Source of the DNA: Bacteroidales bacterium
GTDB taxonomy: Bacteria > Bacteroidota > Bacteroidia > Bacteroidales > F082
Direction of reading: 5' to 3'
Length of the DNA: 51,920 bases
NCBI GenBank assembly: GCA_015489465.1
Contig: WFZS01000112.1
Location: forward strand, 1 to 51,920
Each line of letters opens with the position of its first letter. The stretch's first letter is position 1. A program made the translations under genes and the position numbers. A model generated the notes under the pieces. It ran no database searches, had not been told where the DNA came from, and saw only the letters and a list, made by a program, of their open reading frames with translations. Positions 26,104-43,515 of the stretch are shown here, in pieces.

Positions 26104-26111
26104 TAAATTTG
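26104..26111 (+). promoter_or_regulatory. -7 promoter element before FMN riboswitch (TAAATTTG)
   Basis: TAnnTTTG match ending 6 bases before the first helix of the riboswitch, which places the transcript start right at the aptamer. Confidence 0.7.
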
Positions 26112-26117
26112 CGCCGA

Positions 26118-26238
26118 TTTTCTTCGGGGCGAGGTGAAATTCCTCACCGGCGGTATAGCCCGCGACTCCCGTAAAAATACGGGACTGATTTGGTGAAATT
26201 CCAAAGCCGACGGTTAAAGTCCGGATGGGAGAAGAAAA
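26118..26238 (+). ncRNA. FMN riboswitch (RFN element)
   Basis: The conserved FMN aptamer is recognisable throughout: P1 is a perfect 8-bp helix (TTTTCTTC 26118-26125 with GAAGAAAA 26231-26238). The core blocks are GGGGCGAGGTGAAATTCC, TCACCGGCGGTATAGCC, CGCGACTCCCG with a variable hairpin (CCCGTAAAAATACGGG), GGTGAAATTCC, AGCCGACGGTTAAAGTCC and GGATGGGAGAA. It lies 131 bases before a TonB-dependent receptor gene, not before rib genes. In the family, bound FMN normally switches expression off. Downstream pairing suggests control of translation (see the helix at 26305-26373). Confidence 0.95.
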
Positions 26239-26304
26239 CATAACGGCTGCTTTTTTTGTTTGCCGTTGCTTAGGATATTTACGGTAAAAGTATATCCTGA
26301 CATA

Positions 26305-26373
26305 TCATGTGTTTGATTCCCCCGTCATTTTCCCTGAAGTAGTAAAAACCGTTTAACAAATTAAAACACATGA
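26305..26373 (+). promoter_or_regulatory. Start-codon-hiding helix downstream of the riboswitch
   Basis: TCATGTGTTT (26305-26314) is the exact reverse complement of AAACACATGA (26364-26373), which contains the receptor ATG at 26370. The 10-bp helix with a 49-base loop would bury the start codon. A smaller hairpin AACGGC/GCCGTT (26242-26247 with 26262-26267) lies between aptamer and helix, and the segment CGGCT (26244-26248) could also pair with AGCCG in the aptamer core (26205-26209), giving a possible switch. Confidence 0.6.
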
Positions 26374-28940
26374 AAAGGATAAATTTATTTTTTATTGCCG
26401 TAATTTTTTCAATAAGTGCAAATGCACAATACGTTTTATCCGGAAAAGTTGTCAACGAAAAAAGTAAAAAACCCTTAGAATCCGTGCAAATAACCTTAAA
26501 GGGTACAAACAACGGGACGGTAAGCGATAAAAACGGAAATTTCAAAATCGAAACGAAAAACAAAAAGGGTGTTCTTCAATTTTTTTCGCTCGGATTTACT
26601 CCCAAACAAATAAAATTTTCGCTTGGAAAGAAATCAAAGAACTTGGGTATTGTTGAACTCTCGCCCTCTTCATATTCTCTTGACGAGATAACGATTTCAG
26701 CCGGACTGGCGGATAAAACCAATTCACCTGTAACGGTTTACGAAATTCCGTCACAAGAAATTAAAGAAAAATTGGGGACCCAACCGCTACCTCTTGTATT
26801 AAATGACATTCCGGGAGTTTTCAGCACATCAACAGGCGGCGGAACAGGCGATGCTCAAGTCAGCATCAGAGGGTTTAAACAAGAAAATATAGGAGTTTTA
26901 ATAAACGGTATTCCCGTTAACGGAGAAGAAAACGGATTGCTTTACTGGAGCAATTGGCAAGGTCTTGCCGAAGCATCGGCAAAAATACAAGTACAAAAGG
27001 GTCCGGGAGTCGCAAATATGGCTATTAACGCCGTTGGCGGCAGTATCAATATTGAAACCATAAATCCTTCAAATAAAAAAAGCGGAACGGCTTCTGTGGG
27101 GATATCCTCGTTCGGAAACACAAAAATGACCGTTGCAATAAACACAGGCAAAATGGATAACGGGTGGAAAGTTTCTTTTTTAGGTAGTTACGAACACGGG
27201 CCCGGTTTTGTGGATGCCACTTACGTTAGAAGTTGGGCATATTATCTTAGCGCAACAAAAAAAATAAATAAAAGAAACAAGATTAACATCACTTTTCTAG
27301 GTTCCCCTCAAAAGCACGGTCAAAGAACCCTTAGACTGACATACGACGAAATAAGAAAACACGGCTATTTTTTCAATAAAGATTGGGGAGGATATAACGG
27401 TAAAATAAAAACTGCGTCCGAGAATTTTTATCACAAACCGTTTTTTACATTAAATCACATATTTGCAATAGATAAAGGTAAAAAACTGACGACAACATTG
27501 TATATCGTACACGGTAGCGGCGGTGGATTATGGTCGGAAAGCTTTAATTACGCGCCTTCAATTTTTACGTACAGAAATGCATCGGAACAAATAGATTGGA
27601 ATACCATTTACAATAACAATGCAAATAATACGGATATATACGTTTTGGCAAATGGCGATACCGTTACCGGATTTTCTAAAAATATCCAAACAAAATTTCT
27701 AGCAAGTCATATCATTACAGGCATAATGTCAAATTACAGTCAAAAGCTAAGCAACGGATTAACTTTCAAAACCGGTATCAATTACAAATATTTCAACTCG
27801 TTTTTACGTGAGGAAGTTTATGACCTTTTGGGAGGCGACTTTTTTATTGAAGATTATTCATGGTCGTTAGCCGGAGTCTCGAACAGAAACCAGATAAAAT
27901 TACCCGGCGATATCGTAAAAGTTGACAACAATTCTATTATAAACTTTGTCAGCTGTTATACTCAACTGCTTTTTAAAAATTACAAGTGGAACGGATACAT
28001 ATCATTAAACGGAAACAGCAATTTTTACAAAAGAATAGACAGGTATAATTACATTACCGATATCTCCAGCGATTTAATTGTTAAGCCCGGTTTCGACGTC
28101 AGAACGGGGTCGGCATATAAAATCAACGACAATAACAAACTATACATAAACGGTGCATATTTCAGTAAAGCACCTTATTTTAAATACGTTTTCGGAAACT
28201 TCAACAACACTCCCGTTCAAAATCTTGAAAATGAAAAGGTGACAACAATAGAAGCGGGATATACGCTAAACAAATCGGATATTTCATTTTCCTTAAACGG
28301 TTATATCACCTCTTGGAAAAATGTTTCGATGCTTTCAAACGAATATATTCAATTGGAAGACAACAACTATTCAAGAGCTATGGTAAACGGTTTAAACTCA
28401 TTACATCAAGGCGTTGAAAGTACATTGACGTATAAGCTGAATAACGGTTGGAAACTTTCCGCTTTTGCATCATTGGGTAATTTTAAATGGACCAATGATG
28501 TGGAAGCCACCTTAATTAATAACGATAACATTGTCGTAGATACCGTTTTTGTTTATGCAAAAGACCTTTATGTGGGAGGAACGGCACAGCAACAAGCCGG
28601 AGCAAATTTCAATTTTAATGTTTTTAAACTAATCAATGTAAATGCGGAATGGATTTGGTTCGGAAAACTTTATGCCGATTTTAACCCGTTAAACAGAAAT
28701 AACCCTGATGACAGAACCCAACCTTACAAATTTCCCGATTACAATATTTTCAACATGTATTTAAACATACCGTTTTCCTTAAATGATAAACAAGCCGGAG
28801 TGGATATGGGTTTTTACAACATTTTTAATAAACATTATATCGAAACGGGAGAAGACGGAGAAAATCACGATTTATACTCTTTCAAAGGATTTTGGAATCC
28901 GGGATTTAACTTCAATATCAAGTTGAGTTTTTATTTTTAG
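26370..28940 (+). CDS. TonB-dependent outer-membrane receptor under FMN riboswitch, candidate flavin receptor
   Basis: TonB-dependent receptor of 856 aa: signal peptide to about residue 19 (SANAQ), a CarboxypepD_reg-like domain (about 20-95, SGKVVNEKSKKPLESVQITL), a plug domain (about 120-225, VSIRGFKQENIGVLINGIPV), and a 22-strand barrel ending in the aromatic IKLSFYF. No SusD partner is adjacent, which points to a small-molecule receptor rather than a glycan system. The riboswitch ties its synthesis to cellular FMN, so riboflavin or another flavin is the likely cargo (inference). The next gene is a paralogue with a different leader. Arginine is mostly coded by AGA, as in neighbouring genes. 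Confidence 0.9.
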   Translation: MKRINLFFIAVIFSISANAQYVLSGKVVNEKSKKPLESVQITLKGTNNGTVSDKNGNFKIETKNKKGVLQFFSLGFTPKQIKFSLGKKSKNLGIVELSPSSYSLDEITISAGLADKTNSPVTVYEIPSQEIKEKLGTQPLPLVLNDIPGVFSTSTGGGTGDAQVSIRGFKQENIGVLINGIPVNGEENGLLYWSNWQGLAEASAKIQVQKGPGVANMAINAVGGSINIETINPSNKKSGTASVGISSFGNTKMTVAINTGKMDNGWKVSFLGSYEHGPGFVDATYVRSWAYYLSATKKINKRNKINITFLGSPQKHGQRTLRLTYDEIRKHGYFFNKDWGGYNGKIKTASENFYHKPFFTLNHIFAIDKGKKLTTTLYIVHGSGGGLWSESFNYAPSIFTYRNASEQIDWNTIYNNNANNTDIYVLANGDTVTGFSKNIQTKFLASHIITGIMSNYSQKLSNGLTFKTGINYKYFNSFLREEVYDLLGGDFFIEDYSWSLAGVSNRNQIKLPGDIVKVDNNSIINFVSCYTQLLFKNYKWNGYISLNGNSNFYKRIDRYNYITDISSDLIVKPGFDVRTGSAYKINDNNKLYINGAYFSKAPYFKYVFGNFNNTPVQNLENEKVTTIEAGYTLNKSDISFSLNGYITSWKNVSMLSNEYIQLEDNNYSRAMVNGLNSLHQGVESTLTYKLNNGWKLSAFASLGNFKWTNDVEATLINNDNIVVDTVFVYAKDLYVGGTAQQQAGANFNFNVFKLINVNAEWIWFGKLYADFNPLNRNNPDDRTQPYKFPDYNIFNMYLNIPFSLNDKQAGVDMGFYNIFNKHYIETGEDGENHDLYSFKGFWNPGFNFNIKLSFYF

Positions 28941-29186: not shown

Positions 29187-29194
29187 TACATTTG
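29187..29194 (+). promoter_or_regulatory. -7 promoter element of the second receptor (TACATTTG)
   Basis: TAnnTTTG match 62 bases before the ATG. A palindromic TTAACA-TT-TGTTAA follows at 29201-29214 and could be an operator near the transcript start. Confidence 0.5.
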
Positions 29195-29256: not shown

Positions 29257-31857
29257 ATGAAAAGAAAAAATTTACTTCTTTTGGTAGTTGCGATGATGTT
29301 TGCAATTACCACATTCGCACAAGGAGTTATTCAAGGTGTTGTTAAAGACGCCAATACCGACGAAACTCTTGTCGGTGCAACAGTAATGGTTAAAGGAACC
29401 ACAATAGGTGTTACTACCAACCTCGACGGTAGCTTTTTATTAGTGGCTCCTGCAGGTGACATTACACTTGAAGTATCCTATGTTGGTTATGAAACCGTTG
29501 ACAAAAATCTTACTGTTAAAGACGGTTCGACTTACAACATCGGGGACATCAAACTTAAATCGAGTGCTATAGGTCTTGACGAAGTTAGCGTTATGGCTTC
29601 TGTGGCTGTTGACAGAAAAACACCTGTTGCAGTTTCAACACTTGACGCTCAAACCATCCAAGATCAACTCGGAAGCCAGGAGTTTCCGGAAGTAATGAAA
29701 ACCACTCCCAACGTTTACGTTACAAAACAAGGTGGTGGTTTTGGTGACGCACGTATCAATGTTCGTGGTTTCGACCAAAGAAACGTAGCCGTTATGATTA
29801 ACGGTATTCCCGTTAACGACATGGAAAACGGTTGGGTATATTGGTCAAACTGGGCAGGTTTGGGCGATGCAACACGTACCATTCAGATTCAAAGAGGTCT
29901 CGGAGCTTCAAAACTTGCCATTAACTCCGTTGGTGGTACAATTAACATTATCACAAAAACCACCGATATGAATAAAGGCGGTTCTTTTGAAGCGGGACTT
30001 ACTTCATACGGACGTTACAAAGCAATGTTAACATTGTCAACAGGTAAACTGAAAAGCGGAACAGCCATTACTTTTGTAGGTTCAAGAACAGCAGGCAAAG
30101 GTTACATCGACGCAACTTATGTTGATGCTTGGTCATACTTCCTTTCGGTTTCTCAAGACATAGGTAAAAAACACCAGTTGGTATTTACAGCTATCGGTGC
30201 ACCTCAAAGACACGGACAACGTGACGGATATTACATGCTTGACTCTACTCAATTTGAAAAATACGGTCCCAAATACAACCGTAACTGGGGTTGGTTAGGC
30301 GGAGAATTACTTAACATCCGTGAAAATTATTACCACAAACCTCAATTCGCTTTAAACTGGTACTGGACAATCAATGAAAAAGCTTTCTTGGCTACATCAT
30401 TATATTATTCATTCGGCCGTGGTGGCGGTTCAGGTCCTTTGGGAATGAAACCTTACAAATACGAACCTCCTTTGACAAATTACGGTCAATATGACTGGGA
30501 TGCTATGGTTGACATTAACGCTGAAAACGTTGATACGGCTTTAGCTATAGAAGCAGGCGAATTTACGGTAAACGACAATGGCGATACAACTTTCAACCAT
30601 AATTCAAAACACATTATCCGTAACTCCGTAAACAACCACAACTGGTTAGGATTACTTTCAACTTTGAATTATGATTTCAATATTCACTGGACATTAACGG
30701 CAGGTATCGACTCACGTCACTACAAAGGTGAACACTACCGTGAAGTTAAAAACCTTTTGGGTGGTGATTACTGGTACGATTCAAAATTCGGTGCTGCACG
30801 TCGCGGTGATAAAATCGCTTACTGGAACGACGGTATAGTTAATTATGCAGGACTGTTTGCACAAATGGAATATTCAGCAGGTAACTTCAATGCTTTCCTT
30901 GCAGGAACATTCTCAAACACCTGGACTCAAAGAATCGACTACCGTACATATTTACCCGATAATCCGGAAGCAAAAAGTGAAACCCTTTCAAATTCGGGTT
31001 ATAACTTTAAAGTAGGTGCCAACTATAACTTCAACGAACATAACAATATCTTTGTTAACGGCGGATACTATTCACGTGTTCCGTTCTTCCGTTTCCATTT
31101 CTTAAATTACAGAAACGATGTTAACCCTGATCTTAAAAACGAAAAAGTTTATGCCGCTGAAGTTGGTTACGGTTTGAAACTCGCCAAATTTAACTTGAGA
31201 TTCAACGGGTATTATTCCGTATGGGATGATATTTCACAGCTTGCAGGATTCCGTGCAGATAACGGAACTCACGTTAACGCATTTCTGTCATCACTTCAAG
31301 AAATCCACATGGGTCTTGAACTTGACATGAAATATAAGGTTTCAAGATGGTTAAGATTAGGTGCTTTAGGTTCTTTGGGTAACTGGTACTATGGTAACAA
31401 CCCTCAAGCCACTCTGTATGATGACAATACACATCAACCGATTGGTCAAGGAACCATTTATTTGAAAGATGTTAAAGTTCCCAACCAACCTCAATCGATG
31501 GCCGGTGTTGACGGTAAAGTTAACGTAACCAAAAATATAGATTTGGGCTTCAACTGGTTGTACTATGCAAATATTTATGCAGACTTTACACCTGAAAAAC
31601 GTCAAAATCCCGACCAAGAAGGTATGCAAGCTTGGAAACTTCCCAACTACGGAATGCTTGACATGAGATTAGGATGGAGATTTAAAATCGCCGACACAAA
31701 AGCTTATTTCAACTGGAATGTTTATAACGTAACCAACAACATCGTTCTTGTTGAAGCAGAAGACCGCTATGACAGCCATGCTAATGCATTCGTATTCAAG
31801 AAAGGTTTCTGGAGCTGGGGACGTAACATGAACTTCTCATTGAAGATTTATTTCTAG
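29257..31857 (+). CDS. TonB-dependent outer-membrane receptor, tandem paralogue
   Basis: 866-aa receptor with signal peptide (ending near TTFAQ), CarboxypepD_reg-like domain (about 22-100), plug (about 125-230, INVRGFDQRNVAVMINGIPV) and barrel ending in MNFSLKIYF. It is clearly paralogous to the upstream receptor: both share WSNW, LAIN-VGGTINI-type plug segments and a KGFW ending. It has no riboswitch. Codon choice differs visibly, with frequent CGT for Arg and GGT for Gly, the pattern of a strongly expressed gene. It may be a major outer-membrane receptor; cargo unknown. Confidence 0.9.
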   Translation: MKRKNLLLLVVAMMFAITTFAQGVIQGVVKDANTDETLVGATVMVKGTTIGVTTNLDGSFLLVAPAGDITLEVSYVGYETVDKNLTVKDGSTYNIGDIKLKSSAIGLDEVSVMASVAVDRKTPVAVSTLDAQTIQDQLGSQEFPEVMKTTPNVYVTKQGGGFGDARINVRGFDQRNVAVMINGIPVNDMENGWVYWSNWAGLGDATRTIQIQRGLGASKLAINSVGGTINIITKTTDMNKGGSFEAGLTSYGRYKAMLTLSTGKLKSGTAITFVGSRTAGKGYIDATYVDAWSYFLSVSQDIGKKHQLVFTAIGAPQRHGQRDGYYMLDSTQFEKYGPKYNRNWGWLGGELLNIRENYYHKPQFALNWYWTINEKAFLATSLYYSFGRGGGSGPLGMKPYKYEPPLTNYGQYDWDAMVDINAENVDTALAIEAGEFTVNDNGDTTFNHNSKHIIRNSVNNHNWLGLLSTLNYDFNIHWTLTAGIDSRHYKGEHYREVKNLLGGDYWYDSKFGAARRGDKIAYWNDGIVNYAGLFAQMEYSAGNFNAFLAGTFSNTWTQRIDYRTYLPDNPEAKSETLSNSGYNFKVGANYNFNEHNNIFVNGGYYSRVPFFRFHFLNYRNDVNPDLKNEKVYAAEVGYGLKLAKFNLRFNGYYSVWDDISQLAGFRADNGTHVNAFLSSLQEIHMGLELDMKYKVSRWLRLGALGSLGNWYYGNNPQATLYDDNTHQPIGQGTIYLKDVKVPNQPQSMAGVDGKVNVTKNIDLGFNWLYYANIYADFTPEKRQNPDQEGMQAWKLPNYGMLDMRLGWRFKIADTKAYFNWNVYNVTNNIVLVEAEDRYDSHANAFVFKKGFWSWGRNMNFSLKIYF

Positions 31858-42738: not shown

Positions 42739-43515
42739 TTATTTTTGTTTCTTTAACTCGTCGGGAAGAAAATTGAAAAACGTGTCACCTCTCAATCCCA
42801 ATCTCAATGTTTCCAAAGGAATAATCTCTGCCGGAGCAATGTTACCGAGATTAACATCCGAACCGAAATGCCGGATAAACCAAGCCTGTTGTTTTTTTAG
42901 GGGAGCTTCCCAAATGATATCTGTCAAGGGTATTGAATGAGTAAGAATCTCTATCAAGGCAAAATCAGGTTTTCCCGTTGAGTCGTAAATACCTACGGTT
43001 CCGCTTTCGCGGGCTTCGGCAATAACCTTGAAAGAGCCGGCTTCGCGTTCGGTTTTCATCTGGTTAGCCCATTCGGATGTTGACATCTCTACACCCGCCT
43101 GTTTGGAGCCTACTTCCGAAACTACGGTAAAGTTTTTAGCCAATTTATTTATGTATTCACACTTCTTGTCATGATTCATTTTCATCGAACCGTCCGACAC
43201 TTCTACCGCATCAAAGCCAAGTTTATCAACATAACGTAAAAAATCTTCGAACTGACCTCGAATAACGAACGCTTCGAAAAGTGTTCCTCCCGGATATACT
43301 TTTATCTTATTCCTTTGATAAAGTCTTACTTTCTTTTTAACATCCGTATTCACATAAGATGTTCCGAATCCTAATTTTATAAAATCAATAAGGTTTCCGC
43401 CCATCTCCACGAGATCTTCCGCTTGGTTCATACCCAAACCTTTATCCATTACCATTGTAATTCCCGTATCTCTCGGCTTTTTTGTCCTTTCGGGGATATG
43501 ATTTAGTTCTACCAT
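42739..43515 (-). CDS. comA: Phosphosulfolactate synthase-like protein (ComA family)
   Basis: TIM-barrel protein of 258 aa in the ComA family, which adds sulfite to phosphoenolpyruvate in coenzyme M synthesis of methanogens. Recognisable segments: RDTGITMVMDKGLG, DFIKLGFGTS, KVYPGGTLFEA, FDAVEVSDGSM, VVSEVGSK and VIAEARESG. The later coenzyme M enzymes ComB and ComC are absent here, so the product in this organism is uncertain. It follows the TPR gene by 3 bases in the same operon. Confidence 0.88.
   Translation of the reverse strand: MVELNHIPERTKKPRDTGITMVMDKGLGMNQAEDLVEMGGNLIDFIKLGFGTSYVNTDVKKKVRLYQRNKIKVYPGGTLFEAFVIRGQFEDFLRYVDKLGFDAVEVSDGSMKMNHDKKCEYINKLAKNFTVVSEVGSKQAGVEMSTSEWANQMKTEREAGSFKVIAEARESGTVGIYDSTGKPDFALIEILTHSIPLTDIIWEAPLKKQQAWFIRHFGSDVNLGNIAPAEIIPLETLRLGLRGDTFFNFLPDELKKQK

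Follow-up and report, generated by a model that had tools for sequence, protein, structure and literature searches.

Cofactor-sensing riboswitches upstream of genes for TonB-dependent receptors (TBDRs) are known for thiamine pyrophosphate (TPP) and vitamin B12. In Bacteroides, a TPP riboswitch precedes the gene of the thiamine receptor OMthi (BT2390), which imports the vitamin that corresponds to the sensed cofactor (PMC6977713; PMC5317091). Regulons of flavin mononucleotide (FMN) riboswitches were reported to comprise biosynthesis genes and transporters, with ribU, ribXY and pnuX under their control and none in Bacteroidaceae (PMC3766115). The present analysis concerns a stretch of 51,920 nucleotides (hereafter the window), which is one whole contig (C112; WFZS01000112.1) of the 2.74 Mb draft genome of a Bacteroidales bacterium of the family F082 (GCA_015489465.1; completeness 98.34%, contamination 3.29%) and in which an FMN riboswitch stands before the gene of a TBDR, P0001. 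This arrangement extends the riboswitch-TBDR pairs already known for B12 and TPP. Judged from sequence, P0001 is, with a probability of roughly 85%, a TonB-energised outer-membrane receptor for the uptake of a flavin (riboflavin, FMN or flavin adenine dinucleotide, FAD) in a riboflavin auxotroph, with repression by FMN, and the importer most likely replaced the lost riboflavin synthesis.

The initial annotation of the locus had drawn an analogy to B12 riboswitches in front of BtuB-type receptors, which is apt, and the pair of TPP riboswitch and OMthi is a closer parallel still, in which a vitamin-cofactor riboswitch likewise precedes a TBDR. Nevertheless, riboswitch, vitamin and receptor differ from those of OMthi, which has experimental support, and unlike OMthi, which lies near pnuT, no inner-membrane transporter was recognised beside P0001. 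BtuB, also a riboswitch-regulated (cobalamin) TBDR for a cofactor precursor, has the same fold, but the identity to P0001 in the fold alignment is 12% and no BtuF/CD-like or BtuG-like partner was recognised beside the latter. P0001 would act in the manner of BtuB or OMthi, yet it is itself not a BtuB or a SusC. Its best fold match is PqqU (YncD), a TonB-dependent receptor for the small redox cofactor pyrroloquinoline quinone (PQQ; PMC11658791), at 14% identity (9c4o, E 2.1e-38); such a match is common to TBDRs in general, and the text on PqqU in that source mentions no riboswitch. With the RFN elements of rib operons the locus shares the RF00050 aptamer, whereas the gene behind it encodes an outer-membrane receptor and not ribDEBH, ribB or an inner-membrane transporter. 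To our knowledge, RibU, PnuX/RibM, RibN, RibXY, RibZ, RfnT and ImpX are all inner-membrane proteins, from which P0001 differs as a TBDR, and we know of no assigned route for flavins across the outer membrane of riboflavin-auxotrophic Gram-negatives. A published list of riboflavin importers names RibU, PnuX, ImpX, RibN, RfnT, RibZ and RibXY (PMC6593275). The terms 'TonB' and 'outer membrane' are absent from the main texts of the FMN regulon study (PMC3766115) and of a riboflavin transporter survey (PMC4418817), as are 'riboflavin' and 'flavin' from the main text of a 2024 review of TBDR substrates (PMC11658791). No FMN-riboswitch TBDR was found among the literature matches listed; subscription papers, preprints, supplements and regulon databases lay outside this scope, and an earlier prediction is possible.

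The riboswitch and the genes behind it

The aptamer is a member of RF00050, whose model is covered at full length (positions 1-138 of 138; 121 bits, E 8.3e-28, gathering score 66.2 bits), in agreement with the completeness asserted by the initial annotation, and FMN binding and ligand-dependent gene control are predicted, the signals seen for them being those of the leaders, namely the promoter motif and the anti-P1 element in the window and terminators in relatives. It is the sole FMN riboswitch detected in the whole draft genome. The open reading frame (ORF) behind it indeed codes for a TBDR, as had been claimed: P0001 features a signal peptide (recognised by eye), a CarbopepD_reg_2 (CarboxypepD_reg-like) domain and a plug domain (PF07715) followed by a beta-barrel. 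An AlphaFold2 model built with 20 relatives (predicted local distance difference test, pLDDT, 85; predicted template modelling score, pTM, 0.82) contains a confident barrel, its strands uncounted. The best fold matches of this model are solved TBDRs, PqqU with PQQ first, then FecA, Fiu and others, with BtuB (1nqh) at rank 23; matches of a predicted model such as these establish the fold and not the substrate. Energisation by TonB is predicted, and LDEITIS at residues 104-110, noted by eye, resembles a TonB box. Tested against established families, P0001 is neither SusC/RagA of a SusCD glycan pair (67 bits, TIGR04056 cut-off 368.25) nor BtuB itself (38.4 bits, TIGR01779 cut-off 599.7). A SusD neighbour is absent, as had been noted before: P0001 is followed on its own strand by the ORF of a second TBDR, behind which comes an ORF on the opposite strand. 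As the second TBDR gene has a promoter-like motif of its own (TACATTTG at 29187), the further assertion that P0001 is the only gene the riboswitch can control is likely, though not certain; perhaps the second receptor is part of the same system.

The initial annotation had also proposed a search for RF00050 upstream of TonB receptors in Bacteroidota. In a sample of 247 genomes of the order, mostly drafts, 53 FMN riboswitches were found in 52 genomes, and the flanks of 52 sites were examined with the window as the 53rd. The first downstream ORF belonged to a ribD-led operon at 21 sites, was ribB or ribBA at eight, a receptor homologous to P0001 at 23 and a cut-off gene at one; these groups were set by sequence similarity, and Pfam confirmed examples of ribD, ribE, ribBA and ribB. 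All 21 ribD-type sites have ribH on the same contig, and three families (f1, f9 and f77) hold the riboswitch before rib genes in one genome and before the receptor in another. Riboswitch searches covering more than 40 genomes used stricter filters, by which some weak matches were lost. The single cut-off gene, truncated by the contig end directly behind the riboswitch of genome G148 (C157; L053:3255-3755), starts with a CarboxypepD_reg-like domain, as do the receptors described here, and resembles by eye the second receptors of the OMP_b-brl_4 type; this genome is also without ribH, ribB and ribE. At the level of the phylum, 29 of 395 genomes had an FMN riboswitch match (28 over the cut-off), one of them being the genome of the window. 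Ten loci outside the order, checked among the other 28 matching genomes (27 over the cut-off), led to ribB seven times, to ribD three times and never to a TBDR, with gene labels assigned from similarity and from known motifs.

Loss of riboflavin synthesis and receptor phylogeny

The genetic context strongly suggests flavin uptake. A ribH gene was detected in 198 of the 247 genomes. Of the 23 genomes with a riboswitch-receptor locus (receptor-type), 22 lack it, compared to 27 among the remaining 224 (Fisher p = 7e-17); counted from genus codes, it is missing in 16 of 18 receptor-type genera compared to 13 of 156 others (p = 5e-13). Likewise, none of the 22 receptor-type genomes lacking ribH yielded ribB (50 genomes searched, 12 positive) or ribE (56 searched, 18 positive, including 16 of 17 prototroph controls), and all 22 have kept a RibF-like flavokinase (48 of 50 searched genomes positive). 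Except for G156, which is only 76% complete, these auxotrophs are at least 92% complete. The initial remark that no rib genes are nearby was an understatement, as no ribH, ribB or ribE turned up in the entire assembly to which the window belongs; no separate search was made for ribA and ribD. Among the 29 genomes with a riboswitch of another type, 28 have it before rib genes and all of these keep ribH, which only G148 lacks. Loss of the rib synthesis genes together with retention of the flavokinase is what a flavin importer would lead one to expect. The predicted flavin uptake is supported by riboswitch carriage that accompanies rib gene loss, and over evolution the same riboswitch would have been placed before biosynthesis genes in flavin makers and before the receptor in scavengers. 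Besides RibF, a second and weaker flavokinase match (58-80 bits) occurs in G005, G048, G119, G124, G158, G217 and G222 (families f6, f49 and f119), six of which are receptor-type auxotrophs, and such a match was also observed in G095 and G162.

The exceptional receptor-type genome G216 retains an intact riboswitch-ribD(EBH) operon and has a second FMN riboswitch before a fragmented receptor gene (G216:C51, locus L076, about 134700-135900). Behind this gene lie a second receptor, which is intact, and a pyrophosphatase, and the whole may be an uptake locus in decay beside the intact ribDEBH operon. Fragmentation is what would be expected if a prototroph needs the importer no longer, but an assembly fault is possible as well.

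Homologues do carry the riboswitch, the opposite of which the initial annotation had named as a refutation. The relatives considered are the best 80 of at least 563 confirmed stretches in a species-genome collection, scanned with a covariance model that was built on 37 of the 53 riboswitches. The riboswitch lies upstream in 75 of these 80. Three more (L103, L140 and L161) have a contig edge at their start, and those from Flammeovirga (L157 and L160, 33% identity) are truly without it. This set shares contigs with the 247-genome sample (e.g., L138/G224), and the two sets are therefore not independent. In a tree of 76 proteins, which includes 51 of the 75 riboswitch loci and the window, 51 of the 52 riboswitch-linked receptors make up one clade (Shimodaira-Hasegawa-like approximate likelihood ratio test, SH-aLRT, 100), and the riboswitch state changes only twice. 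The second receptor of the window falls into the sister clade next to the second receptors of riboswitch operons and is 71% identical to that of L131. A member of this sister clade, L162, carries a riboswitch itself. Other members occur in the prototrophs G002 and G010, in which no FMN riboswitch was detected, and flavin specificity therefore need not extend to the entire sister clade. The two clades differ in specific residues, e.g., W707, R506, Y603 and W842, which by themselves do not show what is bound. A protein of 470-480 amino acids begins within about 30 nucleotides after the receptor gene both in the Flammeovirga loci (L157:8551-9990 and L160:8560-9996) and in two riboswitch loci (L115:8592-10007 and L052:5829-7241); no match was obtained in Pfam for that of L052 or in NCBIfam for those of L157 and L115.

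Leader signals and a proposed switch

The leaders of 72 of the 75 riboswitch loci were scanned, L101 being dropped as cut off and L142 and L149 for weak matches with uncertain ends; the anti-P1 scan comprised these 72 and the leader of the window, and all expectations derive from mononucleotide shuffles. The motif TANNTTTG, which we take to be a -7 element of the Bacteroidota type, occurs within 60 nucleotides upstream of the aptamer in 64 of 72 leaders (3.8 expected), mostly at a distance of 11-15 nucleotides; therefore, transcripts probably start with the aptamer. In the window, the complementarity between the 5' strand of P1 and a downstream element (Table 1) was equalled by one of 100 shuffled leaders (p = 0.01), and such anti-P1 complementarity reached p <= 0.05 in 42 of the 73 leaders (3.7 expected). 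Moreover, a GC-rich hairpin with a T-run follows the aptamer in 29 of 72 leaders, e.g., in L097 (0.75 expected), and the 5' arm of the terminator in these relatives is often complementary to the P1 5' strand, resembling the anti-P1 element of the window. In another group of leaders (e.g., L135, L138 and L139) the likely start codon lies at the extreme end of the aptamer, which fits translational control.

From these signals we infer the direction of control. At low cytoplasmic FMN, the P1 5' strand would pair with the downstream anti-P1 element, so that reading of the mRNA continues into the receptor gene and its product is formed. With ample FMN, the bound aptamer would form P1 and release the anti-P1 element, which would switch expression off, in many relatives presumably by a terminator that is able to fold once anti-P1 is released.

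Table 1. Positions of the riboswitch, its leader signals and the receptor genes in the window
Feature	Position	Strand	Basis or remark
Promoter-like Bacteroidota -7 element TAAATTTG	26104-26111	+	just 5' of the aptamer, position -12
FMN riboswitch aptamer (RFN element), RF00050	26116-26240	+	Rfam covariance match
P1 5' strand CTTCGGGG, predicted to change partner	26122-26129	+	complementary to 26332-26339
Predicted anti-P1 element CCCTGAAG	26332-26339	+	30 nucleotides upstream of the start codon
TBDR P0001, 856 amino acids, predicted outer-membrane flavin importer	26370-28940	+	Pfam, model, riboswitch-linked clade
Second TBDR, 866 amino acids, sister clade to the riboswitch-linked receptors	29257-31857	+	Pfam, tree

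Elsewhere in the window, a ComA-like protein (phosphosulfolactate synthase family) is encoded at 42739-43515 on the reverse strand, with a TPR protein and an aldehyde dehydrogenase as neighbours.

Substrate, salvage and entry into the cell

The flavin taken up may be riboflavin, FMN or FAD, and the genes found behind the riboswitch-receptor pair bear on this choice. The counts include loci that offer room of 3.5, 5.0 or 5.9 kb, and the neighbours were assigned by their similarity to Pfam-identified proteins. On this basis, 24 of 63 loci have a second receptor behind the pair, 17 of 60 an ENPP-like type I phosphodiesterase/nucleotide pyrophosphatase (NPP, PF01663) and 12 of 57 a PhoD-like phosphatase (PF09423). 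By eye, the NPPs mostly start like lipoproteins and the PhoD-like phosphatases have signal peptides. One NPP aligns to ENPP3 over 378 residues (E 2e-73) with conservation of TFPNH, EPDxxGH, SDHGM and GxHG, which we take to be the metal-site and nucleophile motifs of the enzyme. In the genome of the window, an NPP-PhoD pair lies on another contig (C138). Furthermore, an NPP above 250 bits is present in 15 of 22 receptor-type auxotrophs, in 6 of the 16 further genomes that lack both ribH and ribB and in 5 of 22 prototrophs (receptor-type auxotrophs compared to prototrophs, p 0.006); this cut was set once the scores were known and lies in a gap between 255 and 159. In the minority of loci with these neighbours, the gene content suggests a processing of FAD to FMN and on to riboflavin. 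As a refinement of flavin uptake, the substrate could therefore be FAD or FMN, cut extracellularly or periplasmically by NPP and PhoD before riboflavin enters, a possibility that falls somewhat short of an even chance. It is weakened by the majority of loci with room, which are without such neighbours, by a second receptor and NPP without riboswitch in the prototroph G022, so that the unit may serve general nucleotide scavenging, and by the second receptor, which may have its own promoter.

A more distant alternative is that the receptor imports another nutrient, i.e., iron, heme, a siderophore or another cofactor, the requirement for which varies with flavin status, FMN being only the signal. 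The closest sequence and fold matches of P0001 do include siderophore receptors, and the substrate is not readable from a TBDR fold. However, this explanation would not account for the near restriction of the switch-receptor pair to genomes that lost rib genes, nor for the fragmented receptor of the prototroph G216, and it is considered improbable. The notion of a riboswitch left over from a former rib operon, with the receptor brought behind it by an accident of deletion, agrees with the loss of rib genes and with riboswitch-rib operons in the same families, but it is judged highly unlikely given the linkage to one receptor family in 75 of 80 loci, with nearly all of those placed in the tree falling into one clade, and the preservation of aptamer, promoter motif and terminator or anti-P1 signals well above chance.

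Several observations weigh against the predicted role of P0001 as an FMN-repressed flavin importer. Riboflavin, at 376 Da, might pass porins. The two Flammeovirga homologues have no riboswitch, and the association of the riboswitch-receptor with auxotrophy is phylogenetically structured. In addition, no riboswitch-receptor of the P0001 family was seen in 16 genomes that lack both ribH and ribB. Three of them are explained in part: G045 starts mid-operon at a contig edge, G148 has its switch before another, cut-off gene, and G154 is 78% complete and has ribE. Others, among them G003, G073, G075, G083, G091, G177, G179, G187 and G201, have neither a detected FMN riboswitch nor a close receptor homologue, nor ribH or ribB, and G201 belongs to the same family as the window. 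The remaining auxotrophs without a riboswitch-receptor must import flavin by another way. Concerning the leader, no recognisable terminator was found in the window, either by the terminator scan or by a generic promoter and terminator scan, which gave nothing above shuffles, and 43 of 72 leaders of the relatives likewise gave none. Finally, no dedicated inner-membrane flavin transporter was found, and none was recognised next to the receptor.

For the inner-membrane step of the proposed flavin import, the imported flavin would cross through a transporter, after which the RibF-like flavokinase that has been kept would convert it to FMN and FAD. A candidate is the Pnu family (PF04973), which was present in 56 of 70 genomes, namely in 34 of 38 without ribH and ribB and in 22 of 32 prototrophs, a contrast too small to decide. 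It occurs in 21 of the 22 receptor-type auxotrophs, and the genome of the window has one copy on contig C16. MFS, SSF and SDR proteins were also noted among the neighbour genes.

Taken as a complete system, an outer-membrane flavin salvage can be put forward tentatively, at slightly less than balanced odds: an FMN-riboswitch operon with two TBDRs, a lipoprotein FAD pyrophosphatase and an FMN phosphatase would capture FAD and FMN set free by neighbours, degrade both to riboflavin and supply a cell devoid of rib genes, and auxotrophy in Bacteroidales would have arisen by gene exchange behind one riboswitch, from making to scavenging. If P0001 imports a flavin, vitamin B2 would gain a counterpart of BtuB and OMthi. 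The riboswitch-receptor pair would likewise mark the genomes of flavin scavengers within anaerobic communities, and flavin cross-feeding would become testable. In this order, one riboswitch would also be at hand whose attached gene tracks the change from synthesis to uptake.

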